A stretch of 64,000 nucleotides of DNA from Bacteroidota bacterium (GTDB lineage Bacteria; Bacteroidota; Bacteroidia; Bacteroidales; JAGONC01): contig JAPLDP010000064.1 of the NCBI GenBank assembly GCA_026391695.1, forward strand, positions 1-64,000, read 5' to 3'. Position numbers and translations under genes: made by a program. The notes under the pieces were generated by a model. The model made no database searches. It was not told the DNA's origin and saw nothing but the letters and a program-made list of their open reading frames with translations. How positions within the stretch are numbered: position 1 is the stretch's first letter; each line of letters opens with the position of its first letter. This document shows, one piece after another, positions 18,456 through 22,864 of this stretch.

Positions 18456-18611
18456 CGTTTATCATTGTCATTCTCATGGTAAATTGAATATTGAAGTGGG
18501 ATTTGGTTATTGGATATTCACAAAATTCACTCCTTCACAATCTTCCCCGTACTTGCCCGGGTGCCGGGTTAGGCCAGATCCTGAATATACTATATTTAAA
18601 GACATGGAGTA

Positions 18612-18743
18612 TATGAAAAGAAAAGAGCGTGCACCCGCACACGCTCTTTTTGTAACCCAAAATCTTAAAATTACGAAACAGAAGAGAATAAGATTTTGTT
18701 GTTCACCAAATCCGGGGTTTAATCCTAAAAATCCAAAAAGGTA
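18612..18743 (-). ncRNA. candidate small RNA, tandem copy 1
   Basis: No credible protein is encoded. Read on the minus strand, the unit has a TACCTTTT -7-like box (18736-18743), a stem of TA-rich arms CAAAATCTTA/TAAGATTTTG (18658-18667/18689-18698), and a GC-rich 11-bp hairpin (18621-18631/18640-18650) followed by TTTTCTTTT-type sequence, a layout like promoter-body-terminator of an RNA of about 110 nt. A second copy is at 18822-18953, and the two terminator hairpins differ by a compensatory base pair (A-T against G-C). The short ORFs across both copies share a peptide only because of the DNA repeat. A repetitive non-transcribed element remains possible. Together with copy 2 and the tRNA terminator, this accounts for the gene-free 18406-19069 region. 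Confidence 0.4.
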
Positions 18744-18821
18744 ATATATGTTTTCAAATTTTTTTTATCTTGGTCTGTCACTTTTCATGCTTCATCAAAA
18801 ACAGTATAATTTTAGCTTTTC

Positions 18822-18953
18822 CTAAAAAAGAAGAGAGCGTGACCCCTCACGCTCTCTATGTAACCCAAAATCTTAAAATTACGAAACAGAAGAGAATTAA
18901 AGATTTTGTTGTTCACCCAATCTGGAGTTTAATCAGATTTATTACAAAAGGTA
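18822..18953 (-). ncRNA. candidate small RNA, tandem copy 2
   Basis: This is the second copy of the unit at 18612-18743, with about 57 nearly identical central bases. On the minus strand it has TACCTTTT at 18946-18953, arms CAAAATCTT/AAGATTTTG around the same loop, and a terminator-like hairpin GAGAGCGTG/CACGCTCTC (18833-18841/18848-18856), followed by TTCTTTTTT. A T-run follows the hairpin on the minus strand in both copies, but on the plus strand only in copy 1, which favours minus-strand transcription. Beyond 18955 to the DUF1573 stop nothing else is evident except AT-rich sequence. Confidence 0.4.
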
Positions 18954-19069
18954 ATACACCTTTAAACGATTTTTTTTGAAAAGTTACAAAAAATGTTCTG
19001 AAAATATTAAAAAATGGTGATATTAGATTGAATATCAAATATTTAAAATATAAAATTTCTTTTATTTTT

Positions 19070-19480
19070 TTATTCCTTTATCATGACAATCCCCTTGATG
19101 GTCAACTTATGCTGATCGGTTTCGTTTAAAAAAACCGTGATTGTTTTATTAAAAGCTCCGCCTTTTTGTGCATTGTAAGTGATTGAAATGGTCGAAGATT
19201 CGCCAGGAAGTATTGGCTTTTTAGAATAATCGGCCACCGTACAGCCACATGAGGACCTGACATTTGATATGAGTACAGGCTCATTGGAAGAATTTTTAAA
19301 CTCGAACGTAGCTAATACAGGGCTCCCCTGTTTGATCTCGCCAAAATCATACTCAACAAATTTCCAGATTATCTTCGATGCATTAGTCGCACCTTGCAAA
19401 TCACTTGTGTTCTGAGCAAAATTATGAGTCAACATAAAAAGACTCATTGATAACAATAGGCAAAATCGTGTTGTTTTCAT
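19070..19480 (-). CDS. DUF1573 secreted protein
   Basis: A 136-residue protein from the ATG at 19480 with a signal peptide (MKTTRFCLLLSMSLFMLTHNFAQ). The mature part is a single immunoglobulin-like DUF1573 domain with the characteristic phrases YDFGEIKQG, FEFKNSSNEPVLISNVRSSCGCTVADY and ILPGESSTISITYN. The SSCGC motif is diagnostic. Function of the family is unknown; members are abundant periplasmic or surface proteins in Bacteroidota. An upstream extension to 19570 is open but lacks a signal peptide and covers the presumed promoter. It diverges from the two-component system at 19653. Confidence 0.9.
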   Translation of the reverse strand: MKTTRFCLLLSMSLFMLTHNFAQNTSDLQGATNASKIIWKFVEYDFGEIKQGSPVLATFEFKNSSNEPVLISNVRSSCGCTVADYSKKPILPGESSTISITYNAQKGGAFNKTITVFLNETDQHKLTIKGIVMIKE

Positions 19481-19524
19481 AAGGTGTTTTTTTAAGTATA
19501 AATCAGTCAAATAAAACAGACGTA

Positions 19525-19532
19525 CAAATTTA
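19525..19532 (-). promoter_or_regulatory. -7 element for DUF1573 gene
   Basis: CAAATTTA on the plus strand reads TAAATTTG on the minus strand, matching TAnnTTTG 45 bp before the ATG at 19480. No well-placed -33 element; the phased direct repeats at 19574 start about 42 bp upstream of it. Confidence 0.4.
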
Positions 19533-19573
19533 TCCCGGCCACACTGATAATAGGATAAAAAATAGTTCAATAA

Positions 19574-19616
19574 ATGTAAATGAAATGTAAATTTTTGTTA
19601 ATGAGATGTAAATGCC
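19574..19616. promoter_or_regulatory. helically phased direct repeats, candidate OmpR-type operator
   Basis: ATGTAAATGAA (19574), ATGTAAATTTT (19585), TTGTTAATGAG (19595) and ATGTAAATGCC (19606) are four direct repeats at 11-, 10- and 11-bp steps, and a partial fifth ATGTAATTTT lies at 19637. Direct repeats with one-turn spacing are the known binding pattern of OmpR/PhoB regulators. They lie between the divergent DUF1573 and histidine kinase genes, whose own response regulator is of that class. Confidence 0.5.
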
Positions 19617-19652
19617 GGTAAAATCATAGAACAATTATGTAATTTTAATCTT

Positions 19653-20960
19653 ATGAAAAACCGGGCTATACGAATCGTCGTATTATTAGGAACATTCTCC
19701 ATTGTGTGCATGATTGTTTTCCAGGTATTCTGGGTCTATCAGACCTATCTTACAAGTGAGAAACAATTCAATCAGCGTGTAAAAATAGCCCTATATGATG
19801 TAGCTGAGAAACTGGCAGAATTTAACAAATCACAGCTGCCTTTCAGTAATCCCGTCGAACAGGTTTCTTCTAATTACTTCATTGTGAATGTTGAAAATGT
19901 GATAGATCCCATAATTCTTGAACATTTTCTAAAAACCGGATTTGATCACAGCAACATCACATTGGATTATGAATATGCTATTTACGACTGTGAAAGCAAA
20001 GAAATGGTCTATGGAAATTACATCAGTCCTGTTTCAGATCATACATCCCCAAGCAATCTCAGGACCTTTAAGAAAGATGATATGCTGGTTTATTATTTTG
20101 GGGTGAACTTCCCAACAAAAACCACATATATTATCGAGAATATGAACATTTGGTTCATTTCATCCCTTATTATACTAACTGCTCTATCATTTTTTGCATA
20201 TTCACTATTTATAATTCTGAAACAACGGAAACTATCCGATGTACAAAAAGACTTCATTAATAATATGACACATGAATTCAAAACTCCCATTTCCACCATC
20301 GCCATAGCCTCCGGAGTTCTTTCTGATCCGCTCATTGTCAATGACCCGCAACGTCTTCACAATTACGCCACAATCATCAGTGAACAAAATGCCCGGCTTG
20401 AGCATCATATCCAAAAAGTACTTCAGGAAGCAGGTAGTGATAAAAGTTCCATTAAATTAAAACTGGAACAAATTGAAATTCATGATTTGATTACACATGT
20501 GGTCAGTAACTTTAAAATGAATCAGGCACAAATAAATATGACCATTAACTGTGAACTTCCGGTAAATTCGATTTATTTTCATGGTGACAAACTTCATCTT
20601 TCCAATGTTATTTATAATTTGTTGGATAATGCAGTAAAATATTGTGACACAGATCCTGTCATTCATGTCGTAGCCGGTAATAAAAAGAATGCCCATTTTA
20701 TTTCAGTCATGGATAATGGCAGGGGTATTGAAAAACAATACCTTAACAAGATCTTTGAGAGGTTCTTCAGGATCCCGACCGGAGATGTTCATACTGTAAA
20801 AGGCTTCGGCCTGGGATTGAATTATGTAAAAAATATTATTGATTCGCATAAATGGAAAATTCACGTTATAAGCCAGATTGGAATAGGTAGCATTTTTACC
20901 ATCCTGATTGAAAATAAACATTCTGGAAATGCAAAAAAAAGCACATATTCTGTACGTTGA
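19653..20960 (+). CDS. membrane sensor histidine kinase (RprX-like)
   Basis: A 435-residue kinase with two membrane helices (about residues 8-30 and 170-190) bracketing a periplasmic sensor, then a HisKA domain with the phosphoacceptor H207 in MTHEFKTPI, and an HATPase domain showing the N-box (NVIYNLLDNAVKYC), G1 (DNGRGIE), F-box (FFRIP) and G2 (GFGLGLNYVKNII). The layout equals that of Bacteroides RprX. Its last codons overlap the response regulator start by 32 bp, so the two are co-translated. The signal is unknown. Phased repeats upstream suggest autoregulation. Confidence 0.93.
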   Translation: MKNRAIRIVVLLGTFSIVCMIVFQVFWVYQTYLTSEKQFNQRVKIALYDVAEKLAEFNKSQLPFSNPVEQVSSNYFIVNVENVIDPIILEHFLKTGFDHSNITLDYEYAIYDCESKEMVYGNYISPVSDHTSPSNLRTFKKDDMLVYYFGVNFPTKTTYIIENMNIWFISSLIILTALSFFAYSLFIILKQRKLSDVQKDFINNMTHEFKTPISTIAIASGVLSDPLIVNDPQRLHNYATIISEQNARLEHHIQKVLQEAGSDKSSIKLKLEQIEIHDLITHVVSNFKMNQAQINMTINCELPVNSIYFHGDKLHLSNVIYNLLDNAVKYCDTDPVIHVVAGNKKNAHFISVMDNGRGIEKQYLNKIFERFFRIPTGDVHTVKGFGLGLNYVKNIIDSHKWKIHVISQIGIGSIFTILIENKHSGNAKKSTYSVR

Positions 20961-21636
20961 AGATGATCGTTATCTGAGTTTTGTCACCAAAGATAATCTA
21001 GAGCTAATGGGATATAATATAACCTGCTGCGAAGATGGGGAGCAGGCAATAGATCTCTTTATCAGGAACCATTTTGATATCTGCATAATCGACATTATGC
21101 TCCCTAAAATCGATGGATTTACAGTTGCTACAAAAATCAGAGATATGGACCATCATATACCGATCATTTTTCTGACGGCTAAAACAATGAAAGAAGACCG
21201 TATCAAGGGATTGACAATAGGCGGGGACGATTATATGACAAAACCTTTTAATATTGAGGAATTGGTACTGAAAATCGAAATCTTCCTTAGGAGAAACCGC
21301 GTCAAAGAAGAGCATTCTGAATGTTTTTCACCTTTGAGAATAGGATCTTTCATTTTCGATTATAAAAATCAGCTGTTGAATTTAAAGGGGGAACAAATCC
21401 GGTTAACACAGAAAGAAGCTGATCTTCTTAAATTCTTAAATGAAAACCGGAATAGGGTGTTAAAGAGGGAGGATATATTAATATCGGTTTGGGGGAACGA
21501 CAGTTATTACCTCAGCCGTAGTCTCGATGTTTTTATATCCCGACTGCGAAAGATCCTCAGAAAGGACAGACGAATTAAGATTAAAAATATACACGGTACT
21601 GGCTTTGCACTGACTGTTGCTGCTGATGCCGATTAA
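20929..21636 (+). CDS. OmpR-family response regulator (RprY-like)
   Basis: A 235-residue regulator from the ATG at 20929. The receiver domain has the acidic pair in YVEDD (residues 11-13), phosphoacceptor D55 in IIDIMLPKIDG, and the K in MTKPFN; the C-terminal winged-helix domain (about 135-232) contains LTQKEADLLKFL and SRSLDVFISRLRKIL. An upstream TTG at 20908 is possible but gives no family extension. It pairs with the kinase just upstream. The last 56 bp of the gene are also the antisense 3' end of the U32 peptidase gene, an unusual tail-to-tail overlap. Confidence 0.93.
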   Translation: MQKKAHILYVEDDRYLSFVTKDNLELMGYNITCCEDGEQAIDLFIRNHFDICIIDIMLPKIDGFTVATKIRDMDHHIPIIFLTAKTMKEDRIKGLTIGGDDYMTKPFNIEELVLKIEIFLRRNRVKEEHSECFSPLRIGSFIFDYKNQLLNLKGEQIRLTQKEADLLKFLNENRNRVLKREDILISVWGNDSYYLSRSLDVFISRLRKILRKDRRIKIKNIHGTGFALTVAADAD

Positions 21637-22864
21637 CCAGATATACCTTGTCTGAACGACGGACAGGATTTCCGATCGGGAAGGAGCATGTATCTCCCTT
21701 TCTGGCTTCGCTGGTTAACTGGTTATTTCCTATACGTATTTCGGTAATATTATCCTCAACAACACCTGTTGTCGGCCCGATGATTAGTATCTCATCGCCG
21801 ATATGCAGGGACTTGTTTTCAATTTTCACTTCAGCGACACCGATTTTAACATAATAATTCACCACTTTACCCAGAAAGGTTTTGCGTTTTGTGGCAATGG
21901 ATCCCTCCTGGTTGTGCCATTCACCAACTTTCCGGCCAAGGTAATAGCCATCCCAGAAACCACGGTTATAAACGGTTGCAAGGCGTTGGTTCCATCTTTC
22001 AATATTCGAAGGAGTATATCTCCCGCTAAAACAGGCATCTATCGCTTCACGATAACACTGTGTGACGGTTTTTACATACTCAGGTGAGCGTCCACGTCCC
22101 TCGATTTTCAAAACTGTTACACCAGCTTTTATGATTTTATCCAAAAAACCAATTGTCTTAAGATCTCTGGGCGACATAATGAATTTATTGTCAACAACCA
22201 TTTCTACTTCACCGTCGGTATCGAAGACGCGGTAAGGTCTGCGGCATAGCTGGTAGCAGGATCCACGGTTGGCTGAGGCATTGTAATTGTCGAGGCTCAA
22301 ATAGCACTTGCCTGAAATGGCCATGCACAAGGCACCATGGGCAAATATTTCAACCTGTAACAGCCTGCCTGATGGCCCTGTGATCCGATCCTTTTTGATC
22401 CTGCGAATGATTGAAGCTACCTGGACAAGGCTGAGTTCCCGTGCAGTGACGATGACATCAGCATACCTTGCATAGAATCTTACCGCCTCAATATTGGTAA
22501 TATTGGTTTGAGTAGACATATGGACTTCCATTGAAGCCTGCCTGGCATATTCCATTACTGCCAGGTCGGAAGCAATAATTGCGGTAATCCCATTACGTTT
22601 TGCTGCATCAATAATCGCCCTCATACGTGCCAACTCCTTGTCGTAAATGACTGCATTAAGTGTGATATATGACCGGACATTGCGTTGCTGACACACGGAA
22701 GATATTTTAGCTAGGTCACGGAGTGTAAAGTTTTGTGAGGATCGCGCCCTCATGTTGAGATTACCGATGCCAAAATATACAGAATTGGCTCCGCTTTGTA
22801 TCGCAGCCATGAGTGACTCGTAGGAGCCAACAGGGGACATGATTTCAATTGTATGGGATGTCAT
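21581..22864 (-). CDS. peptidase U32-family protein (tRNA/rRNA hydroxylation type)
   Basis: A 427-residue U32-family protein. Family marks include the N-terminal IEIMSPVGSYESLMAAIQSGANSVYFG, the cysteine-containing signature EIFAHGALCMAISGKCYLS, and NRGSCYQLCRRPY. Relatives such as TrhP/YegQ and RlhA are now linked to tRNA or 23S rRNA hydroxylation, so 'peptidase' may be historical; the clustered cysteines suit an iron-sulfur cofactor. A C-terminal beta domain with HIGDEILIIGPTTG follows. The last 18 codons (rich in Gln and His) lie antisense to the response regulator gene. The gene starts 29 bp after aspS and is probably co-transcribed with it. Confidence 0.9.
   Translation of the reverse strand: MTSHTIEIMSPVGSYESLMAAIQSGANSVYFGIGNLNMRARSSQNFTLRDLAKISSVCQQRNVRSYITLNAVIYDKELARMRAIIDAAKRNGITAIIASDLAVMEYARQASMEVHMSTQTNITNIEAVRFYARYADVIVTARELSLVQVASIIRRIKKDRITGPSGRLLQVEIFAHGALCMAISGKCYLSLDNYNASANRGSCYQLCRRPYRVFDTDGEVEMVVDNKFIMSPRDLKTIGFLDKIIKAGVTVLKIEGRGRSPEYVKTVTQCYREAIDACFSGRYTPSNIERWNQRLATVYNRGFWDGYYLGRKVGEWHNQEGSIATKRKTFLGKVVNYYVKIGVAEVKIENKSLHIGDEILIIGPTTGVVEDNITEIRIGNNQLTSEARKGDTCSFPIGNPVRRSDKVYLVNRHQQQQSVQSQYRVYF

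Follow-up and report, generated by a model that had tools for sequence, protein, structure and literature searches.

Tandem predicted small RNAs of Bacteroidales carrying a putative start-codon-pairing seed

The 64,000-nt stretch of Bacteroidota DNA analysed here (the window) contains two closely similar structured elements side by side, which raises the question whether they are genes for a regulatory RNA and which mRNAs such an RNA would control. In Bacteroidota, where most mRNAs have no Shine-Dalgarno site, few trans-acting small RNAs (sRNAs) are understood. On the sequence data, the reading that we favour, with a probability of roughly 0.6, is that the elements are tandem trans-acting sRNAs of ~115 nt, which would block translation of secreted- and surface-protein mRNAs by pairing with the start codon, in the manner of FopS and GibS. 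Each copy would be a gene of its own on the minus strand, ending at its own intrinsic terminator and probably having its own promoter (the TACCTTTT box). A seed of ~30 nt would be complementary to a leader of the type AACC(C)AAAATCT..AATT followed by AUG and then AAA, and its pairing across the start codon would prevent translation of these mRNAs. We infer transcription, translational repression and the identity of the targets.

The two copies in the window are direct repeats (n = 2) with a spacing of 208-210 bp and 86% identity across 131 nt. On the minus strand each reads in the order TATTACCTTTT, GATTAA-N6 box, variable middle, CTGTTTCGTAATTTTAAGATTTTGGGTTAC, G+C-rich hairpin and T-rich tail (Table 1), with the second half of the 5' box being GATTGGGTGAA in copy 2 and GATTTGGTGAA in copy 1. 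An earlier note on this DNA had described two copies about 210 bp apart with a nearly identical core, a T-rich tail on the minus strand, a box at the opposite end and a compensatory pair in the terminator stem. All of these were recovered: the near-identical core and both tails are present, the box opposite the tail is TACCTTTT, and at the same pair position of the terminator stem copy 1 has A-U and copy 2 has G-C. Two stems had been taken to be under selection, of which the terminator helix stood, with compensatory changes, whereas the second stem is identical in both window copies and therefore carries no covariation.

Table 1. Coordinates of the predicted sRNA genes, their parts and the neighbouring genes in the window.
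Feature	Position	Strand	Remarks
sRNA gene, copy 2	18824..18960	-	R1 model match 18827-18960, 111.1 bits; homologues in 5/5 family genomes; precedes copy 1 in reading order on the minus strand
sRNA gene, copy 1	18614..18750	-	R1 model match 18617-18750, 122.3 bits
TACCTTTT box, copy 2	18946..18953	-	Probable -7 promoter element or RNA 5' end; near-invariant in family
TACCTTTT box, copy 1	18736..18743	-	
5' conserved box GATTAA-N6-GATTGGGTGAA, copy 2	18912..18934	-	Alignments A2, A7; weak consensus helix
Proposed seed CTGTTTCGTAATTTTAAGATTTTGGGTTAC, copy 2	18860..18889	-	Complementary to translation-initiation regions
Proposed seed, copy 1	18652..18681	-	Same letters as copy 2
Central stem CAAAATCTT/AAGATTTTG, window copies	18866..18908	-	Absent from most relatives
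Intrinsic terminator, copy 2	18824..18857	-	11/11 pairs with compensatory changes in family; tail CTTTTTT
Intrinsic terminator, copy 1	18614..18650	-	
DUF1573 gene, upstream on the sRNA strand	19070..19480	-	
U32 peptidase-family gene	21581..22864	-	In several relatives, orthologues lie beside the sRNA

Judged from the alignment of 22 copies, the helix of the terminator truly covaries: all of its 11 pairs have changed on both sides, and 95.3% of the cells are paired. The score of the whole structure was reached by none of 500 shuffles, and slid controls did not come close either. At 78%, the model's 5' helix is weaker, and the alignment itself imposes part of it. Two further pairings were rejected: a conserved central stem, since the helix partner changes between families and relatives form other hairpins there, and a UUACC/GGGUGA pairing near the 5' end, which is a wobble fit in the window's family and has no partner in family f47. 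Fold stability on the minus strand exceeded that of dinucleotide shuffles in the two copies (z -2.6 and -3.5), but plus-strand folds likewise beat such shuffles, so the strand is undecided by folding alone. In the 12 bases past the stem, the sense side has 5-11 T against 1-5 on the other side and is richer in every copy; a short plus-strand T run occurs in copy 1 only. Because the family tail is T-richer on the minus-strand side, the strand is fixed as minus. A covarying G+C hairpin that leads into a U tract on one strand is the mark of an sRNA gene ended by an intrinsic terminator, and the element shows both.

None of the 4227 models of Rfam release 15 gave a match over threshold at 18600-18960, either at gathering or at E<=10, and the sub-threshold matches there were weak and of the type attracted by a terminator hairpin. 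Covariance-model searches, a check of the kind proposed in the earlier note, recovered homologues in other genomes. Across 393 genomes of the order, a first model (nine copies) matched 10; these fall in families f1, f47 and f102, with one doubtful match in f80. A second model, from which locus L025 (G083) was excluded as weak and possibly false (38 bits, E 0.009 in the 393-genome search), matched six of nine genomes in f102, including all four near-complete ones, and two of three in f47. A 26-nt match in G043 (L005) was judged to be chance. The class-wide search (395 genomes) matched the window's own genome alone, under stricter filters by which weak matches may be lost. All five genomes of the window's family carry the element, most of them as two or three copies side by side, and two contig ends in G003 suggest that an assembly break probably runs through the first copy; tandem pairs occur in f102 in G105, G350 and G395. 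The earlier reading as an undescribed minus-strand sRNA is thus supported by the Rfam null result, homologues in three families, the covarying terminator, the strand-specific U tails and the lack of a common open reading frame. On these sequence comparisons the sRNA reading is well supported, and the locus, with homologues in several Bacteroidales families, appears not to have been described before.

The ~30 nt before the terminator appear to form the functional core. Their reverse complement resembles a translation-initiation region, AACCCAAAATCTTAAAATT-AUG-AAA, and reads AACCCAAAATCTTAAAATTACGAAACAG in the window (where the AUG would pair via one G-U), AAACCCAAAATCATGAAAAAACAA in f47 and AACCCAAATCTAATAAATTATCAAAATGAAAAAA in f102. 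Targets were sought in sampled stretches totalling ~0.85 Mb for G000, the window's genome, and ~0.8 Mb for its relative G004, and by whole-genome pattern searches. In G000 (541 start regions), the preference of the seed for starts over ORF interiors exceeded that of 60 out of 60 shuffles, and when seven intervals along the RNA were compared, start preference was found in the pre-terminator one only (0/25 shuffles). The best seed partners in this genome were enriched in AUGAAA starts (p 0.0009) and in signal-like N-termini (p 0.03). The preference recurs with G004 copy 4b (0/60 shuffles), f47 (1/80) and f102 copy b (2/80), and was not significant with G004 copy 4a (11/60) and f102 copy a (18/80). 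Start regions are generally A-rich, so any UUUCAU-like stretch pairs with them to some extent.

One predicted pairing comes from G004, in which the single pattern match genome-wide, AACCCAAATCTTAGAATTATGAAA, lies at the start of a gene for a secreted beta-helix protein. Copy 4b of that genome is complementary to this site along 24 nt that include the AUG, where the one G-U lies; the predicted duplex energy is -34.6 kcal/mol, and the runner-up among the 531 start regions reaches -22. For copy 4a, the best start among the 531 is AACCCAGUU-AUGAAACAG, belonging to a 1008-aa secreted LTD protein and matched by the variant seed in two blocks. If the proposed mechanism is true, the 24-bp pair and the two-block pair of the sister copy are precise and testable sRNA-target predictions. 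Only G004 has the 24-bp target; the seed pattern is absent from G001 and G003, and the single matches in G000 and G002 differ from the full seed. For the seed core, the best match at a start anywhere in the G000 genome lies at a SusD-like gene and has 2 mismatches, and pattern matches near starts across whole genomes include SusD-like genes in G000, G001 and G004.

FopS (Rfam RF04319) comprises paralogous sRNAs of Bacteroides and many other Bacteroidales; in Bacteroides a seed of this type blocks susC translation and the RRM-1 protein RbpB is the antagonist (PMC11697453). GibS, a 145-nt sRNA of Bacteroides, acts similarly from a non-canonical promoter (PMC7366714). By analogy, the element described here likely works like FopS. 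Both are short, multicopy and terminator-ended, with a seed that is single-stranded and complementary to AUGAAA and to the A-rich leaders of mRNAs for surface proteins; complementarity of the seed to translation-initiation regions, as in FopS, was found computationally. The seed letters UUUCAU..UUAGAUUU..GGUUA are similar, and RRM-1 genes are present in all five genomes of the window's family (1-3 per genome), where these RbpB-like proteins may have some role with the sRNAs. The differences lie in architecture and arrangement. FopS is 65-70 nt long with the seed at its 5' end, whereas in the window sRNA, ~115 nt long, a conserved 5' box comes ahead of the seed; FopS is dispersed in 12-15 copies, whereas the window sRNA occurs in tandem copies, often near U32. 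GibS, compared by description, has its seeds R1 and R2 in the 5' part, in contrast to a seed adjoining the terminator, and a different gene neighbourhood; no family named GibS turned up in the Rfam searches of the window elements. If the proposed mechanism holds, start-codon pairing on exported-protein mRNAs would be a recurrent design rather than a peculiarity of FopS, present also in FopS-less lineages.

This likeness could also reflect descent, with the window sRNA as a highly diverged member of the FopS/GibS group, which we regard as unlikely. The best matches of the window-sRNA model in 30 FopS loci are the FopS genes themselves, with a collinear UUUC[AG]U..AUU..GGUU and a terminator, and pairwise alignments with FopS beat shuffles for f47 and some f102 members. 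The window copies alone did not beat the shuffles (p about 0.1), and terminators by themselves attract the models. The FopS model weakly picked both window copies (21.2 and 19.7 bits) and locus L021 (30.5 bits), all below its gathering cut-off of 56 bits, and no FopS over the cut-off was found in the five genomes of the window's family. FopS has a near-invariant 5'-end seed, GTGTTTTTCATGGTATTAGATTTAAGGTTAA, to which the element shows a loose collinear likeness only. FopS membership was rejected on score and the analogy retained; since the seeds of FopS and of the window sRNA complement the same type of start region, convergence explains the likeness. Of the 393 genomes of the order, 75 from many families have FopS itself over the cut-off, with at most 12 matches each.

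The gene neighbourhood bears on another explanation, in which the element would belong to the mRNA of the gene upstream (U32 in relatives, DUF1573 in the window), either as an RNA derived from its 3' UTR or simply as its terminator, cleaved from it or lacking a function in trans. A U32 gene precedes the element at every locus examined in f102, and in the window's family copies stand directly after U32 in G002 and G004. In G350 and G004 the element begins a few tens of bases past the U32 stop codon, and reading of the window sequence revealed no separate terminator between DUF1573 and copy 2. However, tandem second copies retain TACCTTTT and the internal boxes, and the conserved 5' box and seed extend far past a terminator. 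The copies in G001, G003 and f47 do not adjoin U32, and the upstream gene varies while the element remains. These points make this explanation unlikely. A search that started from U32 orthologues in 80 named genome contigs found the RNA beside just one (L065, a Bacteroidales MAG); thus, the U32 linkage is not general. In f102 (L023, L024, L163-L165), a gene for a PHP-domain histidinol-phosphatase-like protein lies downstream in most cases, and the order U32, sRNA, PHP is conserved. In the window, U32 is 2.6 kb upstream of the sRNA pair, with the DUF1573 gene and a histidine-kinase/response-regulator pair between them (19070-21636), in contrast to the directly adjoining U32 of G002 and G004; this interval may be an insertion or rearrangement in this lineage. 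A tentative evolutionary picture, which we hold as a possibility rather than an expectation, is a mostly vertically inherited locus, often beside U32, in which paralogues keep a generic anti-start seed while one copy per species becomes a near-perfect antisense of one surface-protein mRNA (24 bp in G004), so that dedicated repressors would arise from a general one.

The 5' conserved box is unaccounted for by the anti-start-codon mechanism. It carries one of three UGGGU-like stretches per RNA in the window's family, the others being in the pre-terminator box and the terminator loop, and in f102 copies CUGGUCAA is common to the 5' box and the terminator loop. Such repeated motifs could titrate an RNA-binding protein, the RNA then being a sponge, but they are lost in f47, where the 5' box has GATTGAAG and the loop CCGGGG or CCGCCA, and we consider a sponge very improbable. 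An inert repeat, mobile-element remnant or small plus-strand ORF is hardly credible: repeats are common beside tRNA genes and, on the plus strand, frames of 101 and 69 codons run across the copies, but these frames are closed by stops and a 2-nt indel between the window copies, none is open across all members, the stem covaries, and instead of the many copies with broken stems that were to betray an inert repeat, whole-genome DNA searches of the window's genome found none beyond 18614-18750 and 18824-18960.

TACCTTTT is probably the -7 promoter element of each copy. It is nearly invariant, with GTAT or GGGT ahead of it in most copies, and resembles the Bacteroidota -7 box TAnnTTTG, but no -33 TTTG partner box is conserved. 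FopS differs in having a canonical TAnnTTTG promoter a few bases before the RNA. In some copies TACCTTTT is able to pair with AAAAGGTA, and in one f102 copy a better canonical promoter lies ~20 nt further upstream, so TACCTTTT could instead sit in the 5' end of the RNA. In G001 and G003 (L006:1465-1500, L010:1475-1510, L013:190-225), a palindrome such as CTCTCGATAAAATTTTTTAAAAAAATTTTATCGAGAG lies directly before TATTACCTTTT, and is possibly a regulator site or a terminator. In many Bacteroidales genomes, FopS promoters (L139, L143, L144, L147, L148, L150 and others) contain the dyad ATGTTnnnnAACAT around 28 nt ahead of the RNA, its centre falling at about -27 to -31 relative to the start of FopS. 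At least six of its seven pairs are formed in 14 of 30 loci, compared to 16% of shuffles, and the dyad is a candidate operator for a bile-responsive regulator.
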